Source: Gemmatimonadaceae bacterium (lineage in GTDB: Bacteria > Gemmatimonadota > Gemmatimonadetes > Gemmatimonadales > Gemmatimonadaceae). From it: a stretch of 64,000 nt of DNA. The position numbers and the translations under genes are program-made. This document shows positions 24,490-49,128 of the stretch, piece by piece. Location: NCBI GenBank assembly GCA_020846935.1, contig JADLCY010000007.1, positions 62,001 to 126,000 of the forward strand. Direction: 5' to 3'. Position 1 is the stretch's first letter, and every line of letters begins with the position of its first letter. Under the pieces are notes generated by a model that worked only from the letters and a program-made list of their open reading frames with translations, had not been told where the DNA came from and searched no databases.

Positions 24490-24570
24490 GCGCCGTGAGT
24501 GGGATGTGGCCGTGAAGATAACTCCGGCCGCGTCCGGGAAGTCGGCGCACGGGAGGCACGCAGAGCACCA

Positions 24571-25680
24571 ATGACGGGGCTGTCCGCTGGGGAACCCTTC
24601 GCGGCAGGAGAGCGCGGAGGGACTCGCTGTTTGGTCGTCGACGACGAGCCCCACCTGCGTCGCGTGCTCATGCGCGTGATGCAGGCTGACGGGTTTGCGT
24701 GCGAGGAAGCCGGGTCGGGGATGCAGGCGCTCGCCGCCCTCGAACGTGAGCCAGCCACGCTCGTGCTCACCGATCTCGACATGCCGGAACTCGACGGCAT
24801 CGGGCTGCTGAGGGCCGTGCGCGCCCGACACCCCGACACCGCGGTCATGATGATCACCGCCGTCGCCGATGTCGGGACCGCGGTGAGCTGCCTGAGCGCG
24901 GGCGCGATGGACTACCTCACCAAGCCCTTCCACATCGAGGAAGTGCGCGCGCGTGTGCGCCAGGCGCTGGAGAAGCGTCGACTCATCCTCGAGAACCGTG
25001 GCTATCAGGAACGGCTGGAGGAACGCGTCGCCGCACAGGCGCGCCGGCTCGAAGAACTCTTCCTGGCGAGCATCCAGAGCCTGGCCGATGCGCTTGAAGT
25101 GAAGGATCCGTACACCCACGGGCACTCGGTGCGCGTGTCGCGGTACTCGGCGGTCATTGCGCGTGCGCTGGACATGGACGCCGAAGTGGTCCGCCAGATC
25201 GAACTCGGTGGCCGGGTCCACGACCTCGGCAAGATCGGCGTGCGCGAGTCGGTGCTCAACAAGGCCGGGCCCCTCACCGACGAGGAGTACGAGCACATCA
25301 TGACGCACCCGACGGTCGGCTGGCGTCTGCTCTCGCCACTCCTCGGCGACACGCCACGCGCGCTCAACATCGTGCGATCGCACCACGAACGGTGGGACGG
25401 TCGCGGGATTCCCGACGGACTCGCGGGCGACGCCATTCCGATCGAGGCCCGCATCGCCGCGGTGGCCGACACGTTCGACGCAATGGCCAGCGCGCGCCCG
25501 TATCGTCCAGGGGTGGCGCTGGCGGCGACGATCGCCGAGTTGCAGCGCTGTGCCGGGGCGCAGTTCGATCCGCAGGTCGTGCAGGCCTTCCTTCGCGCGA
25601 TCGATGCCGGCGCGATCGACACGTCGGCGCTCGCCGAGGAGCGCGCCCCTTCGGGACTCACGCCCCGGGGCGTGCGTTAG
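24571..25680 (+). CDS. Response regulator with HD-GYP-type phosphodiesterase domain
   Basis: A 369-residue two-domain regulator. Residues 20-140 form a CheY-like receiver (CLVVDDEPHLRRVL; phospho-acceptor in VLTDLDMPELDGIG; MDYLTKPFH with the conserved Lys). A coiled-coil linker follows. The HD domain covers the C-terminal half: DPYTHGHSVRVSRYS, HDLGKIGVRESVLNK, HHERWDGRGIPDGLAG and ARIAAVADTFDAM. HD-GYP proteins hydrolyse cyclic-di-GMP; here the GYP triplet reads GIP, so activity is uncertain. No histidine kinase is adjacent. The ATG at 24571 is chosen. The stop overlaps the convergent neighbour by 3 bp and lies in a CGTTAGGC octamer. Confidence 0.88.
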   Translation: MTGLSAGEPFAAGERGGTRCLVVDDEPHLRRVLMRVMQADGFACEEAGSGMQALAALEREPATLVLTDLDMPELDGIGLLRAVRARHPDTAVMMITAVADVGTAVSCLSAGAMDYLTKPFHIEEVRARVRQALEKRRLILENRGYQERLEERVAAQARRLEELFLASIQSLADALEVKDPYTHGHSVRVSRYSAVIARALDMDAEVVRQIELGGRVHDLGKIGVRESVLNKAGPLTDEEYEHIMTHPTVGWRLLSPLLGDTPRALNIVRSHHERWDGRGIPDGLAGDAIPIEARIAAVADTFDAMASARPYRPGVALAATIAELQRCAGAQFDPQVVQAFLRAIDAGAIDTSALAEERAPSGLTPRGVR

Positions 25681-35096: not shown

Positions 35097-35902
35097 TCCC
35101 ACGGCATGTACTCCTCCAGCGCCGTGGCGCGGTCGTTCGCGCGCCGCGCCTCCTCGTGGCCAAGGAGACGTTCGATCTCCGCGAAGTCCTCGTCGGTCAG
35201 CGCCGGTTCGCCGCGGGCGTGGAACTTCTGCATGGAGCGCCGGAGCCGCTCGGTGTTGGCGGCTGCCATGTGGGGATCCCCGGCCGGCACGAAGCGCACG
35301 CGATCGACATCGAGCAGCACTGCCTGCAGCTCGCCACCGGCCGACGGGGAGAGCAACACGTTTTTCGCGTTGAGGTCCTGGTGCCACGCGCCAGCGTCGA
35401 GCATCGCGGCGAGAAGTCGCGCGAGCGCGCGGTGCACGGGGGCACGATCGGCACCAGCCGCCGTGCCGATCGTCGTCGCGAGATCGAGTCCCTCGATTTC
35501 GAGGGTCACGACGTCGACGCGGCGCAGCAGCACGGCAGCCGGATAGGTCGCAAAGCCGACGATGGGTGGTGTGGGAACGCCAGCGCGCGCCAGCACCGCC
35601 GAGATGAGCAGCTCCGACGCCGCTGGCGTCGGCGGCAGCCACACGTCGCGAAGAATCGGCGCGAGCAGTCCACCATGCCACGCGTGCCGCACCACCACAC
35701 GTGGGCCATCACCGAGAATCGGCGCGGAGTAGACCCTGCCGCGGCCCTGATACTCGCGGCGATCCGGATGACGGGACGCCCACTGATGGAGGGTGTGGCC
35801 GCGAAGGATATCGGCGATCGCCCCGGTGTACCGCTCGTGTGCGACCGCGAGCGGGGAGATGCCTTCGATGCGTTTGTAGCCTTTCGGCAGCCGCAGGATC
35901 AT
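35093..35902 (-). CDS. Kdo/heptose kinase-like LPS kinase (KdkA/WaaP type)
   Basis: A 269-residue protein-kinase-like enzyme. The catalytic loop is WHQDLNAKNVLL (HxDxxxxN) and the metal-binding segment is VLLDVDRVRF (D at the DFG position). The glycine-rich start is reduced (RGRVYSAPI), as in LPS kinases that phosphorylate Kdo or heptose. N-terminal MILRLPKGYKR fits the family. It overlaps both neighbours by 4 bp, downstream of a nucleotide cyclase and upstream of a heptosyltransferase, so all three are made together. The sugar acceptor is unknown. Confidence 0.75.
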   Translation of the reverse strand: MILRLPKGYKRIEGISPLAVAHERYTGAIADILRGHTLHQWASRHPDRREYQGRGRVYSAPILGDGPRVVVRHAWHGGLLAPILRDVWLPPTPAASELLISAVLARAGVPTPPIVGFATYPAAVLLRRVDVVTLEIEGLDLATTIGTAAGADRAPVHRALARLLAAMLDAGAWHQDLNAKNVLLSPSAGGELQAVLLDVDRVRFVPAGDPHMAAANTERLRRSMQKFHARGEPALTDEDFAEIERLLGHEEARRANDRATALEEYMPWE

Positions 35903-37488
35903 CGCAGAGCGCGGAAGACGACGACGGGCTTCGGCTTGCCCCGCAGCGTGAGCGGATCCCGCGACTGGATCGCGTGTTCGCGCGTGAGTGCGGCGCGCAG
36001 CGGTTCCGACATCAGGATCTCTCCGCCGTCTGCCCAGTCGCAGACACGGCGCGCGGTGTTGACGGTGTCGCCGATCACCGTGTACTCGAGTCGGCGTTCG
36101 GAGCCGGTGTACCCGGCAAACGCTTCGCCGTAGTTGAGTCCGATGCCGACGGAGATCTCCGGTCGGTCGTTGGCCCGCCAGCCGCGATTCAGCTCGTCGA
36201 CGGCGTCGAGCATGTCGCGCGCTGCGGCGAGGGCCAGGTCGGGGTCGTCGGGGCTGCTGATCGGTGCTCCCCACTGCGCCATCACGGCATCGCCGATGAA
36301 CTTGTCGAGCGTGCCGCCGTGCCTGAACACACAGTCCACCATCTCGGTGAAGAACTCCGTCAGCAGGGCCGCCGTTTCGTCGGGTTCCATGCGTGCGGCA
36401 AGCGGTGTAAACCCGCGAATGTCGGCGAACAGCACGGCCACGTGACGCCGCTCTCCGCCGAGTCGAAGCGATTCCGGCATCGCCGCGATGCGCTCGGCCA
36501 TGTGCGGCGTGAAGAACCGCTCGAAGTTCTCGCGGATGCGGGCCTCGAGCCGTATGCGCTCGCCGAAGCGGATGTTGTCGAGTGCGACCGCGCCGATGCC
36601 GGCGAAGGCGACGAGGAAGTCGAGGTCTTCGTCGGACACGCGCACGCTGGGGCGCGGTCCGTCGACGTAGAGCACGCCGAGCACGCGGCCTTCGGATGCG
36701 ATGAGCGGGGCGCACCAGATGCTTCGCACCGTCTCCGTACCGCCCGCCGCGCCGGCATCGGCGTCGGAGACGATCGCCACCTTCTGCTCGACCACGGTCT
36801 TCACGAGCGCCAGGCTGACATCGCGCTCGGCGGGGGCGCCGGTCCGCGTGCGCGACGTTCGCGGGGAGAGCGTGCCGCCGCCGTCGTAGAGCCAGATCGC
36901 CACGTAATCGACGTCGAGCAGCCGAAACGTGAACTGGAGCATGCGGTCGAGGAGCCCCTCGACGGTGGTGGATCGCGTGAGCGCCTTCGAGACCTCCACG
37001 AGGAGCATGAGCTTCTGCCGGTCGCGCTGGACCTGCGTGACAGCGGGATCCGACCCCTCGATGGCGGCCTGCGAGCCGGTGGCCAGGAGCGCCTGTTCCA
37101 GCGCCTGGTCGGCGTCGGGTACGGGCACCTGCCGGATGATCGTCGTCCCGGCGCGGGCGGCGCGGCGGCGCACCTCGGCAGAGCTGTCGTCGATCAGCAG
37201 TTCGGTATGCTGCCTCACGTCGAACGACACCTTGCCGAACACGACGCGTTCGCCCGGCGTTAGGCGCGCCTCGGTCGTGCGCACGCCCTGGTAGAACGTT
37301 CCGTTGCTCGATCCGAGATCGCGGACCGTCACCGACGCGGCCTCGACCACGAGTTCGGCATGCCGACGCGAAACCGTGGGGTCGAGGACGGGTAAGTCAC
37401 AGCTCAGGGCGCGGCCCAGCACGAGCGAGAGCCCCGGACGGAGCTCGAACGTGAGGTTGCCGTCGGCACTGACCAGGCGAAGCGTCAT
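35899..37488 (-). CDS. FHA-GAF class III adenylate/guanylate cyclase
   Basis: A 529-residue multidomain signalling protein. An FHA phosphothreonine-binding domain lies at about residues 5-95 (LVLGRALSCDLPV, SRRHAELV, DLGSSNGTFYQG). A GAF domain is at about 150-330 (VDYVAIWLYD, RSIWCAPLI, VLGVLYVDG). The cyclase homology domain is at about 345-529 with VLFADIRGFTPL (metal Asp), DKFIGDAVMAQWGAP (Lys and second metal Asp) and IGDTVNTARRV. Lys in DKF suggests ATP as substrate, so cAMP. It is translationally coupled to an LPS kinase-like gene. The start at 37488 lies 11 bp from the divergent gene's start. Confidence 0.88.
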   Translation of the reverse strand: MTLRLVSADGNLTFELRPGLSLVLGRALSCDLPVLDPTVSRRHAELVVEAASVTVRDLGSSNGTFYQGVRTTEARLTPGERVVFGKVSFDVRQHTELLIDDSSAEVRRRAARAGTTIIRQVPVPDADQALEQALLATGSQAAIEGSDPAVTQVQRDRQKLMLLVEVSKALTRSTTVEGLLDRMLQFTFRLLDVDYVAIWLYDGGGTLSPRTSRTRTGAPAERDVSLALVKTVVEQKVAIVSDADAGAAGGTETVRSIWCAPLIASEGRVLGVLYVDGPRPSVRVSDEDLDFLVAFAGIGAVALDNIRFGERIRLEARIRENFERFFTPHMAERIAAMPESLRLGGERRHVAVLFADIRGFTPLAARMEPDETAALLTEFFTEMVDCVFRHGGTLDKFIGDAVMAQWGAPISSPDDPDLALAAARDMLDAVDELNRGWRANDRPEISVGIGLNYGEAFAGYTGSERRLEYTVIGDTVNTARRVCDWADGGEILMSEPLRAALTREHAIQSRDPLTLRGKPKPVVVFRALR

Positions 37489-37499
37489 GAACCCGGAAT

Positions 37500-39587
37500 A
37501 TGTTACGTTTGACCGCCATGTGGCACCGCGCCCTGCCGTTCCTCGTCGCCGCGCTCCTCGCCGCCGCGCCGGCTGCGGCGCAGGAGTGGAACGACGCGCG
37601 CACGCGCGACCTCGTGACGCGAGCCACCTTGCGCCGAGCGCGCCAGCTCGCGGACACCGCGCTCGCCGATTACACGGCATCGGCGCGCGGATACGTCACC
37701 TTCCTCGCGCAGCTCGGTGAGGGCTTCGTCCTGCCGCCCAGGGTGGTGAAGGCCGATCAGCTCGATCTCGAGATCCACTGGAAGGCGCCGAACCACAGCC
37801 GGCAGTGGATCGTCGGGCGTCGCGACACGCTGCTGCTGCCCACCGACATCAGCTATCATCGCGATCACCTCGGCATCGTTCAGAACAACTTCCCCGACAT
37901 CATTCGCCTCGGCGACGGTGACGAGGTGCAGGACGTGCCGCACCCGCTTTCGGCGCCCGGCCTCGCCACGTACGACTTTGCGATCGGCGACTCGTTGCGC
38001 ATCGAAATCCCGGGGCGGACGATCGACGTGTACGAGGTGAAGGTGCGGCCGCGCAACGATCGCGTACCCGCGGCCGTTGGCGCGCTCTACCTCGCGAAGG
38101 ACGACGCCCAGGTGGTGCGCATGGCCTTCTCCTTCACGCGCGTCGCGCTGAAGGATCCGCAGCTCGAGGACGTCTCCATCATCCTCGAAAACTCGCTCAT
38201 CGCCGAGCGCTTCTGGCTTCCCCGGCGCCAGGAGATCGAGATTCGGCGCAGCGGCAGCTGGATGGACTTTCCGGTGAAAGGCATCATCCGCGGTCGATGG
38301 GACATTCGGGACTACACGGTAAATGCTGGCGGCACCGTGGCCCTGTCGCCCGGGCCGGAGATCCAGTGGGCGCCGCCGGAACGTCGCGCGCGGCATCGCT
38401 TCCCGCCCACGCCGATTCTCGACTCGCTGCCCGACGGCGTTACCATTGCCACCGACGACGAGGTGCGGCAGGTCCAGGAGGAGGCACGCCGACTGGTGCG
38501 GGCGCAGGCGCTTGCTCGCGCCCGAACGACGCGACCCGCCGCCCGCTCGCTCAGCGACCTGGCCCAGGTGAACCGGGTCGAAGGCCTCGCCATCGGCGCG
38601 GGCGTGCGGCGCCGCCTGGGCGCCGGGTTCGACCTGGCGCTGCTCGGCCGGTTCGGCGTCGCCGACGAACGGGGGAAGGGCACGGTCTCGTTAGGCCGCG
38701 AACGGGCCGACGGCCTGGCGTTGCGACTCGCGGCGTATCGCGATTTCCGTGAGGCCGGCGACGTCGCCGAGACCTCGCGTGCACGAAACTCGATCGCGGC
38801 CCAGGAGTTCGGCGCGGACTACTCGCAGCCCTACGGCGTGCGCGGGGCATCCCTGTCGATCTCCGGCCACGCCTCGGAACTCTGGCACTGGTCCCTCGAA
38901 GGGGCCGCGGAGGCGCAGCGCGCCCTCGAGGTACATGCCGTCCCATTCCAGGGGCGGTACCAGCCCACGCTCCTCGTCGACTCCGCCCAGGCCCTCCGCG
39001 TCGCCTTTCGACTCGAACGCCCCAGCGCGCCCTGGTACCGCGGGTCGTTGCTGAGCGTCCGCGCCGAAGGCCGGTTCGGTCATTTCGTCCCCGAGCCACG
39101 AGAAGGGGAGGTGGTCGCGACGAACACCTGGCGCGCGTTTGTCGGCGCAGAATTGCTCGCGCCCACGGGTCGCGGTGCCATGGTCGTGCGCGCGGCCGTT
39201 GGCGGTGTCCGGGGTGACCACGGCGTACCCCCGCAGGAGCTGCTATTGGCCGGTGGCCCCATCTCGGCGCCTGGGTACGGCTTTCACGAGTTTCGCGCCA
39301 CGGGCCTGGTGACCGCGCGGCTCGAATTGCGCCGCCCGGTGCCCTTCGTGCGCATTCCGCTGGGACGCTGGGGCCAGATTCCGCCAACCCTCACCTTGGC
39401 TCCATACGCCGGCACCGTCGGCGTGGGAGGCCGCCGAGGTGCTGCGGAGCAGGGGATGTTCCCCTACGTTGGCCTGGGCGCGATCGGCGTGTTCGACCTA
39501 CTCCGGTTCGATGTCGCTCGCGGGCTGCGCGACGGACGCTGGCGTTTTGCCGTCGACGTCACGCGCGATTTCTGGTCCATTCTGTAA
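37500..39587 (+). CDS. Large outer-membrane beta-barrel protein with periplasmic N-terminal domain
   Basis: A 695-residue exported protein (signal peptide ending AAPAAAQ). Residues 60-290 form a soluble beta-rich region (for example RTIDVYEVKVRPRNDRVP, VGALYLAKDDAQVVRMAFSF). From about residue 360 to the end the sequence alternates as in a 12- to 16-strand barrel and ends RWRFAVDVTRDFWSIL, with a terminal hydrophobic/aromatic residue pattern. The layout resembles DUF5686-type proteins of Bacteroidota; that is an inference. The ATG at 37500 or 37518 may start it; both leave a signal peptide. It is divergent from the cyclase gene, with almost no intergenic DNA. Confidence 0.7.
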   Translation: MLRLTAMWHRALPFLVAALLAAAPAAAQEWNDARTRDLVTRATLRRARQLADTALADYTASARGYVTFLAQLGEGFVLPPRVVKADQLDLEIHWKAPNHSRQWIVGRRDTLLLPTDISYHRDHLGIVQNNFPDIIRLGDGDEVQDVPHPLSAPGLATYDFAIGDSLRIEIPGRTIDVYEVKVRPRNDRVPAAVGALYLAKDDAQVVRMAFSFTRVALKDPQLEDVSIILENSLIAERFWLPRRQEIEIRRSGSWMDFPVKGIIRGRWDIRDYTVNAGGTVALSPGPEIQWAPPERRARHRFPPTPILDSLPDGVTIATDDEVRQVQEEARRLVRAQALARARTTRPAARSLSDLAQVNRVEGLAIGAGVRRRLGAGFDLALLGRFGVADERGKGTVSLGRERADGLALRLAAYRDFREAGDVAETSRARNSIAAQEFGADYSQPYGVRGASLSISGHASELWHWSLEGAAEAQRALEVHAVPFQGRYQPTLLVDSAQALRVAFRLERPSAPWYRGSLLSVRAEGRFGHFVPEPREGEVVATNTWRAFVGAELLAPTGRGAMVVRAAVGGVRGDHGVPPQELLLAGGPISAPGYGFHEFRATGLVTARLELRRPVPFVRIPLGRWGQIPPTLTLAPYAGTVGVGGRRGAAEQGMFPYVGLGAIGVFDLLRFDVARGLRDGRWRFAVDVTRDFWSIL

Positions 39588-39706: not shown

Positions 39707-41950
39707 ATGCACCCAGTCACTCATCGGGACGAATGGCTTGTCCCGACCTTGAGCAAGCTCATCGACGCCCTCGCTCTCGAGGACATCCGCGCCAACGCGG
39801 AGAGTCTCTGGAGCGAAGTCGTGCGACGCGGACTGGTCACGGACGACCGAATTCTCGCAGCGCTCGCGACGCGGTTCCGGATGCCTGTCGCCGAGCTCGC
39901 GACGGTGACCAGCGATGCGCGGGATGCCGTCACCGAAACGTTGGCGCGGAAGTACCAGATCGTGCCGCTGACCGTGGCGGACCACACGCTCGACATCGCG
40001 ACGGCAAATCCCAACGACCTGGATTGCGAGCGCGCGCTCGGCTTTGCGACGGGCAAGTCGATCCGTATGCGCCTGGCGTCGCCCTCCGCGATCGCCGCGC
40101 GTATCGATGAGCTCTATCAGCCAGAGACCGTCTTCAACCGACTGATCGACGCCGTCGGAGACACGGACCTCGAGACCATCGCCGAGGGCGAGGAACTGGC
40201 CGATCTCGACGTCGGGTCAGAGACGTCGTCGGCGCGGCCAATCATCCGGCTGGTGGATCACATCATCGCCGAGGGGATCTCGCAGCGGGCGAGCGATATC
40301 CACCTGGAGATGCAGGAAAAGGGCGTGCAGGTGACGCTGCGCGTCGACGGCGTGCTGCGGCCGACGATGTTGTTGCCGCGCGCGGTGGGCATCCCGCTCG
40401 TGTCTCGCATCAAGATCATGTCCGGGCTCGACATCGCCGATCGGCTCCGGCCGCAGGACGGGCGGGCACGGGTCTCGGTGAGTGGTCGGCGCGTTGACCT
40501 CCGGGTGTCGACGCTGCCCGCGTCGACGGGAGAAAAGGTCGTCGTCCGCATCCTCGATGCCGGGTCCACCGTGCTCGAACTGGGTGCGCTTGGTATCAGT
40601 CAGGCCGATCTCGCCCAGATCCAGCACCTGATCAACCTGCGCGAGGGCATCATCCTCGTCACCGGCCCGACGGGGTCCGGCAAGACGACCACGCTGTACG
40701 CCGCGCTGCGCACCATCCAGCAGCGCGGCGTGAACATCGTGACGGTCGAGGATCCCGTCGAATACAAGCTCAACGGCATCGTGCAGGTGCAGGTCAACGA
40801 GAAGGCGGGGCTGACCTTTGCGGCCGCGCTGCGCTCGATCCTGCGACAGGATCCCGACGTGGTGCTCGTGGGCGAGATTCGCGACCGGGAGACGGCGGGC
40901 ATCGCCATCCAGGCGTCGCTGACCGGTCACCTGGTGCTGTCGACCCTGCACACGATCGACGCGGCGACGACGGTCTCACGCCTGCTCGACATCGGCATCG
41001 AGTCCTACAAGCTCGGCGCCGCGATCAAGGGCATCGTGGCGCAACGCCTGCTGCGCCGACTGTGCCCGAACTGCCGCAAACCGCACACCGAGCCGCTGTC
41101 GGCACGCCTGCGCCGCCACGTGCCGGACGGCGCGACGTTGTTCAAGGCGGCCGGCTGTCACGAGTGCAACAACACGGGCTATCGCGGACGCCTTGCGCTC
41201 ATGGAAGTCCTCGTTGCGGACGCCGAGGTCGAGCGCCGTATCTCGGCGGGTGAGAGCGCCGAACGCATCGCCGCCGCGGCCCGGGAAGGCATGGCGATGC
41301 GTTCGCTCTGGCAGTCCGGCATCGACCACGTCGTCGAAGGCAACACCGACCTGGACGAATTGCTGCGCGTCGTCGAGGTGCCGATCGAATCCGGACCACC
41401 CCGCCCGACGCCGCACTCCGTCCTGTCGGTGCCGACTCCCACGCCGACGGGCAAGGCACCGCTGGGCTCGGCACGAAACGGGCGGCCCACGCCGGCTCCG
41501 GGAACGCTAACGGCCCCGGTCGAAGCGGCCTTCGAGCTCATCGACGACATTCCAGCCGCGCCGCGCCGAAGTGGACAGCCCACCGTGCTCCTCGTCGAGG
41601 ACGAACAGCACCTGCGGCACGTACTCAAGGAAATGCTCGAACGGGACGGATTCACGGTTATCGAGGCGGCCGACGGAATCCAGGCGCTCGAGGAGGTCGA
41701 TCATGCCTCGCCAGACGCGGTAGTGCTGGACCTCAACCTGCCCCGTCTCGACGGGTTCGGCGTGCTGGCCCGCCTGCGCTCCCGACGCCCCACCGCAGGC
41801 CTTCCGGTCATTGTGCTCACGGCTGCGACCGATGAGGACAACGAGGTCCGGGTCTTTGATGGCGGCGCCACCGACTTCCTGTCCAAGCCGTTCCGCCCAC
41901 GCGCACTGTCCGCCCGCCTGCGAGCGCACATCAAAGCGCGTCGATCGTAA
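39707..41950 (+). CDS. Type IV pilus/type II secretion assembly ATPase (PilB/GspE) fused to a C-terminal receiver domain
   Basis: A 747-residue protein. The N-terminal MshEN-like region (about 15-140) is followed by the secretion ATPase: Walker A GPTGSGKT (320-327), the Asp box VEDPVEYKLNGIVQVQVN, Walker B VLVGEIRDRETA (about 385) and the His box TLHTIDAATTVSRL. The zinc site is CPNC at 453-456 with CHECNNTGYRG further on. A Pro-rich linker leads to a CheY-like receiver from about 625 (TVLLVEDEQHLRHVL), with phospho-acceptor Asp675 in VVLDLNLPRLDG and Lys in FLSKPF. It powers pilus or pseudopilus extension. No other pilus gene is adjacent. A terminator follows. Confidence 0.9.
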   Translation: MHPVTHRDEWLVPTLSKLIDALALEDIRANAESLWSEVVRRGLVTDDRILAALATRFRMPVAELATVTSDARDAVTETLARKYQIVPLTVADHTLDIATANPNDLDCERALGFATGKSIRMRLASPSAIAARIDELYQPETVFNRLIDAVGDTDLETIAEGEELADLDVGSETSSARPIIRLVDHIIAEGISQRASDIHLEMQEKGVQVTLRVDGVLRPTMLLPRAVGIPLVSRIKIMSGLDIADRLRPQDGRARVSVSGRRVDLRVSTLPASTGEKVVVRILDAGSTVLELGALGISQADLAQIQHLINLREGIILVTGPTGSGKTTTLYAALRTIQQRGVNIVTVEDPVEYKLNGIVQVQVNEKAGLTFAAALRSILRQDPDVVLVGEIRDRETAGIAIQASLTGHLVLSTLHTIDAATTVSRLLDIGIESYKLGAAIKGIVAQRLLRRLCPNCRKPHTEPLSARLRRHVPDGATLFKAAGCHECNNTGYRGRLALMEVLVADAEVERRISAGESAERIAAAAREGMAMRSLWQSGIDHVVEGNTDLDELLRVVEVPIESGPPRPTPHSVLSVPTPTPTGKAPLGSARNGRPTPAPGTLTAPVEAAFELIDDIPAAPRRSGQPTVLLVEDEQHLRHVLKEMLERDGFTVIEAADGIQALEEVDHASPDAVVLDLNLPRLDGFGVLARLRSRRPTAGLPVIVLTAATDEDNEVRVFDGGATDFLSKPFRPRALSARLRAHIKARRS

Positions 41951-42255
41951 CGCTCTGCCCTGCAACTGCTTAGGGTTTCGGAGCACGGGAGCATCTGATG
42001 ATGCTCCCGTCGCCTTTCGAGGATCATTGCACGCTCTTCAGCCCGGAGTCGGGCGTGCCGACCACTGGCTTGCGGAACTCCGCGCCCAACGCGCCACGGA
42101 CGACCACGGAGCGCACCGCGGGGCTCGGGCAGGAGGAAGAAGAGGACTTGGCGGTCGATGGCACGCGCCACCGCTGCGCGCGGGTGAGCGCGGCATCCCC
42201 CGCGCACGCCACTTGTACACTGGCGTGCGATTGTGCGCCCGTGCACTATCGAGTC
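41951..42255. other. Intergenic region after the pilB-like gene
   Basis: Apart from the terminator at 41986-42009, no gene is seen. The frame of the next gene stays open upstream (from 41998), but that translation has no protein-like features and precedes the signal peptide. Confidence 0.5.
41986..42009 (+). terminator. Terminator hairpin of the pilB-like gene
   Basis: Perfect 10-bp stem CGGGAGCATC / GATGCTCCCG with a TGAT loop, 35 bp after the stop, followed by TCGCCTTTC. Confidence 0.6.
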
Positions 42256-42735
42256 ATGCAGCGTTTTCCGGTCAGGTTTTTTGTACTCGCGTTCCTCCCA
42301 GCCCTCGCGTGGCACCGGGCCTCGGCCCAGGATTCCACGTACAGACGGGGGCGCGCGGTCGGTGACTCCGTGGCCTCGACCACGCTTCAGATGGGGTGGT
42401 TCGCCGGGGGGCTCGTGGCGGGAGCCGTTGCCGGACCGTTCGGCGGCTGGTGGGCAGTCAGCCGCGCCGGACGTCCCGTTTCGGGTGACGTCCCCCTTGG
42501 CACGGCAGAACGCGACCCCGAGTTCACCAAAGGCTTTACCGACGGTTACCGCCGCGGCGAGCGCTCCCGGCGGCGTGAGTATGCCTTCGCAGGGAGCATG
42601 GTCGGGACCGCGGCTCTTGCGGTGATCATCGTGCAGATGGCGCATGCGCGTGACAAAGTCGGCGGTAACGGCCCACCGGGCGATGGTGGCCCGAATCTGG
42701 TGCGAATCCCGTTGTTGCGATTGGTTATCCCGTAA
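42256..42735 (+). CDS. Hypothetical exported membrane protein
   Basis: A 159-residue protein with a signal peptide (MQRFPVRFFVLAFLPALAWH, cleavage near SAQ). Two hydrophobic stretches follow, MGWFAGGLVAGAVAGPFGGWWAV and the glycine/alanine-rich FAGSMVGTAALAVIIVQMA, separated by a basic segment YRRGERSRRREY. The C-terminus is Gly/Pro-rich. No family is recognised. The ATG at 42256 is chosen because it puts the signal peptide at the N-terminus. It is flanked by terminator-like hairpins on both sides and so is probably monocistronic. Confidence 0.6.
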   Translation: MQRFPVRFFVLAFLPALAWHRASAQDSTYRRGRAVGDSVASTTLQMGWFAGGLVAGAVAGPFGGWWAVSRAGRPVSGDVPLGTAERDPEFTKGFTDGYRRGERSRRREYAFAGSMVGTAALAVIIVQMAHARDKVGGNGPPGDGGPNLVRIPLLRLVIP

Positions 42736-42737
42736 GG

Positions 42738-42769
42738 GCCGTCACGCGCACGGACCGCAGCGTGACGGC
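42738..42769 (+). terminator. Hairpin directly after the hypothetical exported protein
   Basis: Perfect 10-bp arms GCCGTCACGC (42738-42747) / GCGTGACGGC (42760-42769) with a 12-nt loop begin 2 bp after the stop codon. There is no U tract. Confidence 0.45.
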
Positions 42770-42779
42770 ATCCGACTCC

Positions 42780-42917
42780 GGATCGCAGCCGCCGGCGCAC
42801 GCCGGCGAGATGTCAAGGAAAGATGCGAAGCGGGGCCCGGCATTGCCGGGCCCCGTCGCGTGTGTGCTGTGCCGATCGCGGTTCAGCACGATCCATTGAG
42901 ATAGCAGTTCGCGAGCC
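42780..42917. repeat. 138-bp direct repeat, copy 1 (orphan susD tail plus hairpin)
   Basis: This block matches 44132-44269 at about 93% by hand count (10 differences in 138). It contains the last 11 codons of a SusD-like gene on the minus strand ([10 protein letters not shown] and stop at 42883-42885) and the perfect hairpin CGGGGCCCGGCA-T-TGCCGGGCCCCG (42831-42855). No susD body precedes it, so it is a detached gene tail. The rest of this gap, 42918-43292, shows no gene or other element I can support. Confidence 0.85.
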
Positions 42918-43292
42918 CCTGGCGGGCGCGTTCATCGCACGCGCGAGCCCGGTCGCGAACTCCTACCGCATGCTCGTGACGCTGCGGTATTCGGTCTGAC
43001 ATCGAGCACAGGTCAACCAAGGGGCAGCAAGTATCTCTCATACGGATACGGCGCAATCACCGCCTGATTGATCCACCATGAGCACGCGAACGACCGGAGC
43101 CAACAGCGAGACGCGGTGGCTCCCCTGACTGGTAGGTCTCACTCGCTGGGCTCTCACGGTATGGCGGGCTCGTTCGCGTTCGGAGAAGAGCTCACGTCGC
43201 CGTCAACCAGCTGAACCTCGGATTCGCGGCCACCAGGCACGCGAATGGCCCGACCGCGAGGCACATCGTCGCGTTGGAGACTATGATTCAGC

Positions 43293-43697
43293 ATGCCGCA
43301 GAAACGAATTCCACTCGTCGAGCACGTGCCGAAGACCCTCAAACGCGGGAATCGCACAGCCGCGCCGGGGATTCCGGCAAACATCAGGGTTGATGGCCTC
43401 ACCCTCGATGAGAGCGACCGCGACTACATCCGGAGAAGGCTTGGTGAGAAGCTCGGACGATATGCGGGGTCCGTCGAGCGCATCTCGGTCCGATTGCGCG
43501 ACATCAACGGTCCTCGTGGTGGCGTTGATGTACGCTGCCGCATCAAGGTCGTTCTGAGCGGCCTGCCGAGCATCGTCGTCGAGCAACAGAACACTGCCTT
43601 TCGACCCGCGCTCACGGAAGCGCTGGCCAGTGTCGAGCGAGCGGTGCGACGCACGCTGCAGCGTAAGCGCACGCGACCCCTGCGCGCCAAGCAATAG
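43293..43697 (+). CDS. hpf: HPF/RaiA-type ribosome hibernation factor
   Basis: A 134-residue protein similar to short ribosome-hibernation promoting factors. After a basic N-terminal extension (about 25 residues), the core reads DESDRDYIRRRLGEKLGRY, then SVERISVRLRDINGPRGGVD, VRCRIKVVLSGLPSIVVEQQ and a final helix ASVERAVRRTLQRKR. Such proteins bind the 30S decoding region and stabilise idle ribosomes. It is clearly shorter than long HPF (no C-terminal dimerisation domain). It sits alone between the two copies of a 138-bp repeat. Confidence 0.75.
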   Translation: MPQKRIPLVEHVPKTLKRGNRTAAPGIPANIRVDGLTLDESDRDYIRRRLGEKLGRYAGSVERISVRLRDINGPRGGVDVRCRIKVVLSGLPSIVVEQQNTAFRPALTEALASVERAVRRTLQRKRTRPLRAKQ

Positions 43698-45587
<1,890 letters not shown>

Positions 45588-45600
45588 TGGGTCGTCTCCG

Positions 45601-48600
45601 TCAGAAGCCCACACGGGCGGAGAGACTGAAGCGTCGCGGCATCGGAAGTCCCCACGCGTTGATTCCTTCCTGGAAGTTGTTTACGAGTTCGCTAGTCGAC
45701 GCGCCACGTCCGAGCGCGTTCATTTCCGGATCGGCCCCCGGATAGCGCGTCATGATGCCAAGGTTACGGCCCGCGAAGGTGATGGCGAGCGTCCGACCTC
45801 CAATGCTCCGAACCAGGTGACGCGGAGCGTCCCACGTGAGGCTCAGCTCGCGCCATCGGATGAAGTCGGCCTCGTGGATCTCGTTCAACCCGTCGAGTGG
45901 CGTGAGTCCTTTCATCTGTGTCGCCCACACACGCGCTGCCTCGAGCCGCTGTTCGGCGGTGCTCGTTGGGTTGGTCAGCGTCGCCTCGATTTCGGCCGCC
46001 TGCAGCGAGTTGCGCCCGATGAGTCCATGGTTGCGGCGGAAGGCCCCCGTGAGGTCGTGTACCCAGTAGTTCCCCGTTCGGAACTCCAGCATCGTCTCCA
46101 GGCGGAGGTTGCGCAGGAAGGTGAAGCGCCCACCGAACGAGCCGGACCAATCGGGGAACGGCTTGCCGATGTAGCTCGTGTTATCGGTCTGGCCGCACTT
46201 GGCAGCCAGAACGTTGATCGCATCAGGACTGCGTGGCTGCGAGAAGTAGGTGAGGAGGGCATCGCGCGTGGAGGGCGTGCAGCCGGCGCCCACGCTGATC
46301 GGATACTCCACCGGCATACTGGTGGGGGCGAAGAACGCGCCAGGCGCGTATCCCTGTCGAATCCAGTTGACGTAGCGCGCGTACGATCCGCTGATCTTGA
46401 TGGCCGGCGCCCCGCCCAGGTCGGTGACCTCCTGATGCAGGTAGGCGGCATTCGCGAACAGGTCGAGTGACATGCGGCTCCGCTTCATGACGTCGGCCTT
46501 GATGCCGAGCTCGAGGCCGTGCGCCTTCATCTGGCCGATGTTGTCGAGCTGCGGATTGCTGAAGCCACCCGACGGCGGGAACTGGCGCGCGACCAGCGCA
46601 TCCTTGACCGCGCGATTCCAGTATGTCACCTCGAGGGCGAGGCGATCGCGCAACGTCCCCACCTCGAATCCGCCTTCCCACTCGGTCGAGGCTTCCGGCC
46701 TCAGATCCGGGTTACCGAGGTTGCCAGGCCGAAGTCCGGCGCCGGCTTCGGAGGCCTGGGGGACGAAGGTCGTGTACTTGTCGAAGGCGCCCGGCTGCAG
46801 CCCGGACTTTCCGATCGCCGCACGCAGTCGCAGAGTCGAGATGCCCGGCACAGACCATCCACCAATGTCAGTCGGAACCACCGAGAGGCTGACCTTGGGA
46901 TAGAACGCACCCCCCGCGCTCTCGCCGAAGGCACTGTGCTTGTCGTAGCGCGCGCCTACGGTGAGGAAAGCGAAGTCCTTCCATCCGAACTGCTCCTGCG
47001 CAAAGACGCCGGCGCTGACCTGCTGAAGGAACTGTTCCCACGTGGTCTGGATGGCACCGGCACCGGTGACCTCGATGCCGGGCCCGGGGAATTCGTTCCC
47101 CGTGCCATAGCTGGAATTGAGCTGCGAGGAGAAGAGCTGCGCCCCCACGACCATCGCCGAGGTGAGGTTCGATGAGAGCTTGGTGTCCCAGGTTCCCTTG
47201 CCTTCGAAGCTCAGGTCGCGGTTGTGGCGGTTGCTTGCCGTCCGCAGCCCCTTCACGTCGGCGTTGGCGTAACCATCGACGTTCCAGCCGAAGGGAAGCA
47301 TGCGCGTTCCCATCTGGTCGACGATGTCGACCCCGACGGTGGCATCGAGCGCGATCGAGGTGAGTGGCCGGTAGTTCGCATTGAACGAGCCGCCGAAGCG
47401 CCTCACGTCACCGTAGTTGCGGCGCTGCATCGCTTCGCGCACGGTGGTGAAGGCGCCGGCACCGGTCGGGTTCTTCGCGTTGGCGAGCTCCGGCTTGCTG
47501 AGGAGGAGCATCGCGAGCGTGCCGTAGATGTTGTTGTTGTTGTCGGGCGTTTCGGTGTGCGACTCGACGTAGCTCGAGTTGAGCCGCATGAGCATCTTCT
47601 CGGCCGGGAACATCGTCAGGGATCCGTTGGCCTGTTTGCGCTGCGCCACGTCCGACGCCGGTCCCCACTGACGGCCGCCGAAGGGGCCGTTCTCCGTCTC
47701 GTATCGTCCCCCCATGAAGTAGTTCACCTGCTGCGCGCCGCCGGCCACGGAGGCGGAGTAGGTCTGGAAGTTCCCCGTCTCGTACATCATCGATTCCAGG
47801 TCGACCGTGAACGGCTTGAACGGGGTGATCGGCTGCTTCCAGAAGGCGGTGAGCGCGTCGGCCTGCGTCTGCGTGCGGGCGAAGCCCGCGTGCGGCTCGT
47901 ACACGTGCGGGTAGCTTGAGGCGCCCCCCTCGATGTGCAGGTCGTAACGCGGCGCCCCCACGCTCCCGCGCTTGGTGAAGATCTGGATGACCCCGCTCGA
48001 CGCCTCGGTACCGTAGAGCGTCGCCGCAGCGGCCCCCTTCAGCACTTCGATGCGCTCGATCGACTCCGGGTTGATATCGTCGAGACGCGACGGACTTCCG
48101 CCGTTCTGGCCGACCCCAGGCCCCATCCCGCCCGAGTTGTCCATTCGAACGCCGTCGACATAGATGATCGGTTCGTTGGACTGCGAGAGGCTGGCACCGC
48201 CGCGAATGCGAATCTTGGCTCCTTCGCCCACCAGCCCGCCCCCCGGCATCGCGATCACGCCTGGCTCACGGCCCTGCAGCACCTCCGACACCGTCTTCAC
48301 CGGCGCCGATTCGAGCTGATTGGACCCGATGGTGGCGACCGTGTTGCCGAGCTTGCGCTTTTCGGTCTGCGCGCCGGCGCCGCTGACCACCACCACGTCC
48401 AGCTGCAGCGCCGTGGCCTCGAGCGCGACAGTGAGGCGGGCCGTGTCGCCGGCCTGTACGGTGATCTGCCGCGTCACCGAGCGATAGCCCAGCCCGCGTA
48501 TCTGCACCGAGGCTGGGCCCGCCGGAACACTGAGCAGACGAAACTGCCCCAACTCGTTCGTCTGCGTGCCGCGCCCCGTGCCTACGAGAACGACGGAGAT

Positions 48601-48744
48601 GGCATTGAGCGGGCGATCTGTACTTACCTCGGTGATCGTGCCGACCACCGTGCCCGTGGCCTGGGCCTGTGCGACCGACGCCGTCAGCGCCATGCACGCT
48701 GTCGCGCCGACGGACCGGAGCAAATTGGACAACCATCGCGTCAT
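45601..48744 (-). CDS. SusC/RagA-like TonB-dependent outer-membrane transporter
   Basis: A 1047-residue TonB-dependent barrel. After the signal peptide (ending VAQAQ) comes a carboxypeptidase-regulatory-like domain (GTVVGTITEVSTDRPLNAIS, LPVGY-type QIRGLGYRSVTRQITV). The TonB plug has VSEVLQGREPGVIAMPGG, IRIRGGASLSQSNEPIIYVDG and ERIEVLKGAAAATLYGTEAS, all SusC hallmarks. The rest is a 22-strand-type barrel ending LPMPRRFSLSARVGF. It imports an oligomer with the SusD partner and TonB/ExbBD energy. Start ATG at 48744. The upstream stretch holds a TTGACA. Confidence 0.93.
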   Translation of the reverse strand: MTRWLSNLLRSVGATACMALTASVAQAQATGTVVGTITEVSTDRPLNAISVVLVGTGRGTQTNELGQFRLLSVPAGPASVQIRGLGYRSVTRQITVQAGDTARLTVALEATALQLDVVVVSGAGAQTEKRKLGNTVATIGSNQLESAPVKTVSEVLQGREPGVIAMPGGGLVGEGAKIRIRGGASLSQSNEPIIYVDGVRMDNSGGMGPGVGQNGGSPSRLDDINPESIERIEVLKGAAAATLYGTEASSGVIQIFTKRGSVGAPRYDLHIEGGASSYPHVYEPHAGFARTQTQADALTAFWKQPITPFKPFTVDLESMMYETGNFQTYSASVAGGAQQVNYFMGGRYETENGPFGGRQWGPASDVAQRKQANGSLTMFPAEKMLMRLNSSYVESHTETPDNNNNIYGTLAMLLLSKPELANAKNPTGAGAFTTVREAMQRRNYGDVRRFGGSFNANYRPLTSIALDATVGVDIVDQMGTRMLPFGWNVDGYANADVKGLRTASNRHNRDLSFEGKGTWDTKLSSNLTSAMVVGAQLFSSQLNSSYGTGNEFPGPGIEVTGAGAIQTTWEQFLQQVSAGVFAQEQFGWKDFAFLTVGARYDKHSAFGESAGGAFYPKVSLSVVPTDIGGWSVPGISTLRLRAAIGKSGLQPGAFDKYTTFVPQASEAGAGLRPGNLGNPDLRPEASTEWEGGFEVGTLRDRLALEVTYWNRAVKDALVARQFPPSGGFSNPQLDNIGQMKAHGLELGIKADVMKRSRMSLDLFANAAYLHQEVTDLGGAPAIKISGSYARYVNWIRQGYAPGAFFAPTSMPVEYPISVGAGCTPSTRDALLTYFSQPRSPDAINVLAAKCGQTDNTSYIGKPFPDWSGSFGGRFTFLRNLRLETMLEFRTGNYWVHDLTGAFRRNHGLIGRNSLQAAEIEATLTNPTSTAEQRLEAARVWATQMKGLTPLDGLNEIHEADFIRWRELSLTWDAPRHLVRSIGGRTLAITFAGRNLGIMTRYPGADPEMNALGRGASTSELVNNFQEGINAWGLPMPRRFSLSARVGF

Positions 48745-49128
48745 TGCGGACTACTCCTCTCGACAAGAACGGATACACACGCAGCCAACAGCGGCTCGCG
48801 CCGCCACCTTTGCGATCGGTACATATTGTTGTCAATAACTTTTCTGCGATCGCGCTCACCAGCATTCAGATACAGGCGCATACCTGACAGAAATGACAGC
48901 GTATGCCTGACAAGCGTCGACCGGGTGAGCCCGACTCACATGGGAGGGATTGCGAGAGAGCGGCACGGCGTATCCCGTCAGCGACCGGAGCGCATCCCAC
49001 CGCGCGACACTTCATCAGGACCGAGGTTGGCCCCGCGGTGCGCGGCAAGCACTCACCTTCGCCCGCTCCTCGGCGCATTGTGCGCCACGCGTCGACGTCG
49101 GCGCGGTCATCACTCCCAATCAGATCTC
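48745..49128. other. Intergenic region between susC and the NUDIX gene
   Basis: The susC-proximal part (about 48770-48905) is clearly less GC-rich than the surroundings and holds a minus-strand TTGACA (48830-48835) and GCGATCGC-type palindromes. These are candidate promoter and regulatory sequences. No gene is supported in the rest. Confidence 0.5.
48830..48835 (-). promoter_or_regulatory. Candidate -35 element of the susC-susD operon
   Basis: TTATTGACA on the minus strand matches the sequence around the -35 of the second TonB-dependent receptor (63405-63413). No convincing -10 is seen at 16-18 nt, so the element is tentative. Confidence 0.3.

Follow-up and report, generated by a model that had tools for sequence, protein, structure and literature searches.

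A PilB/GspE-class ATPase fused to a CheY-like receiver domain in the Gemmatimonadales

An intact gene in the stretch of 64,000 nucleotides analysed here (hereafter, the window), which comes from a Gemmatimonadaceae genome, encodes in one polypeptide a PilB/GspE-class motor with its full motif set and a canonical CheY-like receiver. We see about an even chance that this protein is an orphan PilB-derived motor without c-di-GMP input, which would be controlled by the phosphorylation of its own receiver and would act most likely on a shared platform of the PilC type. Pilus and secretion motors are controlled by c-di-GMP, adaptor proteins or separate response regulators, and the rings formed by PilB and GspE are hexamers.

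The features of the fused gene and of its surroundings are listed in Table 1. The protein belongs to the T2SSE/PilT-like secretion ATPase superfamily (PF00437), and its Walker A residues G320-K326, E390, H415 and Cys453/456/484/487 were invariant in a 28-sequence alignment; we take these to be the Walker A motif, the catalytic Glu, the His box and the four Cys of the PilB/GspE type, respectively. The C-terminal part qualifies as a response regulator by its PF00072 score, by its acidic pair (Glu631/Asp632), Asp675, Thr705 and Lys727, and by its modelled fold. The AlphaFold2 model, for which an alignment of the window protein and 27 relatives was the input, had a mean pLDDT of 85.1 and a pTM of 0.56. 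In this model, the receiver adopted the canonical five-strand/five-helix fold with block means of at least 88, and Asp675 ended strand 3. The pLDDT of the linker residues 569-616 was below 50, and the model does not define the placement of the receiver on the motor; this segment is probably disordered, as far as the model can tell. The earlier note had proposed a receiver domain behind a PilB/GspE-class motor, a Pro-rich linker between them, an acceptor at Asp675 and the conserved Lys (Lys727), and all of these elements were recovered, with the Response_reg match and the AlphaFold2 model agreeing on a true receiver fold. When the surroundings of the fused gene were scanned for promoters and terminators, nothing exceeded shuffled sequence.

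Table 1. Features of the fused gene and of its surroundings (positions in the window)
Feature	Position	Strand	Remarks
Receiver-HD-GYP-like response regulator	24562-25677	+	Response_reg 98 bits, HD_5 117 bits; 14 kb from the ATPase
FHA-GAF-adenylate/guanylate cyclase	35899..37680	-	neighbour conserved in divergent orientation; true start probably within the ORF
Outer-membrane-barrel-like protein	37500..39587	+	weak DUF5686; 119 bp upstream of the ATPase
ATPase-receiver fusion gene	39707..41950	+	747 aa, ATG start, no internal stops, single intact ORF
MshEN domain (Pfam PF05157)	39875..40126 (residues 57-140)	+	59 bits vs cut-off 23.1
T2SSE ATPase (PF00437)	40226..41368 (residues 174-554)	+	428.9 bits vs cut-off 24.9
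Pro/Ala-rich variable linker	41375..41578 (residues 557-624)	+	alignment of 40 orthologues; AlphaFold2 low confidence at 569-616
Short conserved motif F/L-E/D-L-x-D/E	41531..41545 (residues 609-613)	+	just N-terminal of the receiver
CheY-like receiver (Response_reg, PF00072)	41585..41920 (residues 627-738)	+	103.9 bits vs cut-off 30.2, E 7e-30
Codon of the phospho-acceptor Asp675	41729..41731	+	sequence position
Ribosome-hibernation-factor-like gene	43293-43697		S30AE (Pfam)
SusD/SusC-like pair (presumed identity)	44235-48744	-	
Stand-alone Nudix hydrolase gene, 154 aa	49126..49590	+	about 7.2 kb from the ATPase in the window; directly behind the ATPase in many genomes

The distribution of the receiver-tailed form was followed in 395 genomes of the phylum, among which f1 denotes the family of the window (140 genomes) and f2 and f3 denote two other families of the same order (88 genomes). 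Alignments reaching residue 729 or beyond were obtained in at least 108 of the 395 genomes, including at least 75 of the 88 f2/f3 genomes and at least 33 of the 140 f1 genomes, a degenerate-receiver genome (G001) being counted among the latter. Since so many relatives align into the receiver, a join of two genes by sequencing error is ruled out. Profile-model tails read from the DNA added nine f1 receivers (G250, G270, G147, G305, G029, G261, G070, G189 and G078) and two f2/f3 receivers (G161 and G104), all set off by long linkers or contig ends, and the totals thereby rose to at least 42/140 and at least 77/88, respectively. The best matches of the remaining f1 genomes were of paralogue grade or fragments and were left out of the tail classes.

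No alignment of comparable grade was among those listed for the 167 genomes from other orders. Four genomes followed up from the best-scoring ones of these orders (G185, G347, G336 and G318) each carry a receiver-tailed ATPase that belongs to a separate, though related, group (L181, L188, L193 and L195; approximately 40-43% identity). A second ATPase-receiver family (L060-L063 and L065) was approximately 40-49% identical, and its members adjoin genes resembling aroA, cmk and rpsA. At least four of the five loci of this paralogous group have a stand-alone CheY-like gene directly downstream. Outside Gemmatimonadota, the MshEN-T2SSE-REC architecture was found once, in Desulfoluna spongiiphila (L075), among 74 loci taken from the best 80 matches listed, a sample that favours likeness to the window protein. 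The Desulfoluna protein shares the domain order of the window protein, with a receiver of 97.2 bits; however, the tree places it among the PilB-type ATPases, outside the Gemmatimonadota family (support inside that group is weak). The Desulfoluna fusion is therefore likely to be independent of the Gemmatimonadota one, as far as sequences can tell. The domain pairing is widespread in the Gemmatimonadales.

To describe the constraint on the receiver, the window protein and 39 hand-picked receiver-bearing orthologues, degenerate and paralogous ones excluded, were compared. The mean pairwise identity was 0.72 for the receiver, 0.69 for the ATPase core, 0.74 for the N2 part and 0.55 for MshEN, and it was 0.39 for the first 56 residues and 0.18 for the linker, the length of which ranged from 52 to 123 residues. 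L611 of the motif ahead of the receiver was invariant (40/40). The full set of acidic residue, Asp, Asp, Thr/Ser and Lys was kept in 71 of the 75 distinct receiver tails, paralogues included. The exceptions were L013 (G001, of the window's genus), which has lost the acidic pair and changed Lys to Arg, L192, L194 (Lys to Glu) and L208, the frame of which is broken. By our own reading, L211 (f2) contains a receiver-like sequence out of frame. By these identities, the receiver is as conserved as the motor and under constraint, and the conservation of the phospho-chemistry in 71/75 distinct tails supports phosphorylation as the input.

In the available text of PMC5013675, the MshEN c-di-GMP receptor consists of two 24-residue RLGxx... 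motifs. The window protein shares the N-terminal MshEN domain with the MshE-type ATPases described there; however, the tandem c-di-GMP motif is absent from it. With a slightly relaxed pattern, no motif was found in any of the 108 distinct receiver- or Nudix-tailed proteins, and the same pattern detected two motifs in L103 and one in L075, the Desulfoluna protein, in which the window protein differs from it. On this motif test, we rejected an input of c-di-GMP through MshEN. The pattern is also missing from the three other, receiver-less PilB/GspE-class ATPases encoded in the window genome, and therefore the loss of the motif is not tied to the fusion. The same 2016 text, in its available part, notes that MshEN also occurs with a two-component receiver (REC). 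The MshEN-REC pairing was thus already in print, and the present fusion family is a variant of it.

Among solved structures, Geobacter PilB (5tsg/5zfr) was the best relative by sequence (residues 19-556), sharing the N1-type, N2 and ATPase parts, and GspE and PilB were among the best structural matches by fold; the match to Geobacter PilB ends before the receiver. Superfamily and fold are also common to Vibrio GspE (4pht/1p9r). Nevertheless, the window protein scored below the family cut-offs of both, with 518.8 vs 675.65 bits for PilB (TIGR02538) and 529.3 vs 630.25 bits for GspE (TIGR02533); the fused gene is not part of a pil locus, and no gsp genes were seen beside it. Control of a PilB motor by a response regulator is also represented by the PATAN-CheY-like PixE of Synechocystis, which is hypothesised to bind the motor PilB1 according to the part available of a review (PMC7690835). 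However, PixE is a separate protein, and no PATAN domain was detected by Pfam in the window protein. The accessible portion of a 2024 review of PilB control (PMC11656802) makes no mention of 'receiver' or 'fused', and no paper with a PilB/GspE-receiver fusion as its subject was found in the literature accessible to the search, where subscription journals are thinly covered.

The window genome (4.5 Mb in 15 contigs, estimated to be 100% complete) gave eight PF00437 matches and six PF00482 domains in three proteins. These three PilC/GspF platform proteins are located on contigs C15, C1 and C3, each beside another, receiver-less ATPase. The fused gene is on contig C7 and the PilB-PilT-PilC-like cluster of the genome on C15; no pilC/gspF, pilT or gsp gene was seen adjoining the fused gene. 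We therefore rejected the idea that this protein powers a complete secretion system encoded alongside it, since no platform gene is nearby and the three platforms of the genome are all accounted for. The earlier note had suggested that phosphorylation could directly gate pilus extension. The phosphorylation input is backed by the receiver tails with the full residue set, but the pilus-extension part finds no such backing in the genes adjoining the fused gene or in the PilB and GspE scores.

A shared platform is nonetheless available, since at least one PilC/GspF (T2SSF) match was found in all 80 genomes tested, each of which has an orthologue ending in a receiver or a Nudix domain. In 31 of these 80 genomes the number of T2SSF domain matches was exactly two, which is what a single PilC should yield; if the orphan drives a pilus-like machine, there is one candidate platform in each of them. 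A single match was obtained in G148 and G306 (in G306 only at 1e-5). The co-occurrence with PilC proves nothing alone, because every tested genome has it and the comparison holds no negative set.

The gene order was compared across 33 orthologous loci, comprising 16 f2/f3 loci, nine receiver-bearing f1 loci (window included) and eight Nudix-tailed or tailless f1 loci, and all counts are lower bounds. A broadly kept order was observed: FHA-GAF-cyclase, TrpE-like, barrel-like, ATPase, Nudix, EngB-, Lon-, ClpX-, ClpP- and trigger-factor-like genes. The cyclase, Nudix and Lon were assigned by Pfam; the identities of the TrpE-like, EngB-like, ClpX-, ClpP- and trigger-factor-like genes are presumed. 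In at least 26 of the 33 loci, a large protein similar in size to the barrel is encoded directly upstream on the same strand. Since its relatives keep this position upstream of the ATPase, the barrel-like protein offers a clue to the system served by the orphan motor, and the cyclase is a possible second-messenger link. Within the window, the response regulator at 24562-25677 has an output of the c-di-GMP-phosphodiesterase type.

A hybrid histidine kinase (GAF-PAS-HisKA-HATPase-receiver) adjoins the gene in at least 8 of the 16 f2/f3 loci, and none was found next to it in the nine receiver-bearing f1 loci (window included) or in the eight Nudix-tailed or tailless f1 loci. This kinase is a fair candidate partner in f2/f3 only. 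At the locus in the window organism, a neighbouring kinase was looked for and not found. The window genome gave 34 matches to the hybrid-kinase query, some to the GAF or receiver part only, and no close copy was among them, the best being 39% identical over the kinase core.

In 31 of the 140 f1 genomes, and in G014, a Nudix hydrolase domain replaces the receiver in frame at the same locus. The Pfam NUDIX score of the fused tail was 62-67 bits in three examples, and 31 of 32 distinct Nudix-fused sequences passed a strict Nudix-box pattern; L056, L057, L058, L059, L064 and L066, among others, are Nudix-fused ATPases with an intact box. The Nudix-tailed form was absent from all f2/f3 genes read. 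The fused domain matches the neighbouring stand-alone Nudix gene, which is present in 15 of 24 receiver-tailed orthologous loci with long flanks, often directly downstream, and no second such gene was nearby in any of six Nudix-tailed loci with long flanks. The Nudix form likely arose when the receiver was lost and the ATPase gene fused in frame to the one that follows it. In the window, a small membrane-protein-like ORF, the S30AE gene and the SusD/SusC-like pair lie at 42000-48800, between the ATPase and the Nudix gene. Since the two are only 67 bp apart in the same-genus locus L032, this segment looks like an insertion or rearrangement. The tail was lost or unrecognisable in at least 11 further f1 genes (L067, L068, L182, L185, L186, L190, L191, L196, L198, L199 and L219). 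One of them, L068 (G018), contains several partial ATPase copies in tandem, one with a Nudix end, as if the fusion were the product of repeated duplication, or else of a faulty assembly.

In FastTree trees, the Nudix-tailed proteins fell into two groups, and f2/f3 were nested inside f1, against the given taxonomy; the support of the deep branches was mixed (0.25 to 0.99), and this placement may come from long branches or rooting. A receiver is also carried by the paralogous outgroup, which would favour an ancestral receiver and a later Nudix domain. The replacement, degeneration or loss of the receiver in relatives means that it is not essential to the role of the ATPase. Being replaceable, the receiver is suggested to tune the motor and to be unneeded for its basic act. 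The claim that no separate response regulator would be needed holds for the gene itself, but the receiver is dispensable at the same locus in relatives.

According to the reading that we put forward, a histidine kinase would phosphorylate Asp675 of the receiver, which a long flexible tether keeps behind the motor, and the phosphorylated receiver would alter the activity, docking or localisation of the motor. Phosphorylation would in this way take the place of the absent MshE-type c-di-GMP input. The motor, as a hexameric ring, would most likely work on the shared type IV pilus/secretion platform (PilC type) of the cell, either as an alternative extension motor or as a competitor of the resident PilB, and some lineages would have lost the receiver control. 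It is possible, but in our judgement doubtful, that the receiver serves mostly for docking or localisation, or as a phosphate sink, with phosphorylation setting the place of the motor and not its speed. The variable length of the tether makes tight allosteric coupling less likely, and the degenerate receiver kept in the same-genus relative and the short conserved motif ahead of the receiver would also fit such a role. However, the phospho-chemistry is retained in nearly all distinct tails, and the tether is compatible with phosphorylation-dependent docking back onto the ring.

The lack of a platform, PilT or Gsp gene nearby could also mean that the ATPase has ceased to act as a secretion motor. 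It would then be a soluble signalling ATPase, a PilB relic with its ring turned into a scaffold or a reporter of the nucleotide state, and a house-keeping response would have the C-terminal module (receiver, Nudix or none) as its exchangeable input or output. A conserved neighbourhood with cyclase, TrpE-like, EngB-like and Lon genes and nothing pilus-related, together with the intact catalytic box of nearly all Nudix tails, is in line with this, but the protein has lost none of the features that mark an active secretion ATPase (the four Cys and the N1-type domain are both present), and PilC is kept in every genome tested. We consider this reading unlikely. That the receiver is a functionless passive tail, derived from neutral read-through of neighbouring genes, is very improbable: the tail is indeed lost, degenerate or replaced in several f1 genera, but at least 77 of the 88 f2/f3 genomes carry the receiver, it is conserved like the motor, and its catalytic residues are kept.

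On a broader and more tentative view, the Gemmatimonadales may have a separate class of platform-less PilB-derived motors whose N-terminus does not sense c-di-GMP and whose C-terminus has a plug-in site, at which a receiver was gained and, in some lineages, exchanged for the neighbouring Nudix domain. Such a protein may be a competing motor that takes over the resident pilus platform in response to phosphorylation, or else a non-secretion signalling ring. Because it is an orphan, one must ask whether it serves a platform at all and, if so, which. Asp675 offers a single-residue test, and the exchange of receiver and Nudix domain at one locus is a natural experiment on the role of the tail. If the view is true, one and the same motor is coupled to a phosphorelay in some lineages and to an enzyme that hydrolyses nucleotides in others. 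With the receiver built into the motor, an arrangement conserved across an order, no shorter route from sensor kinase to motor would be possible.
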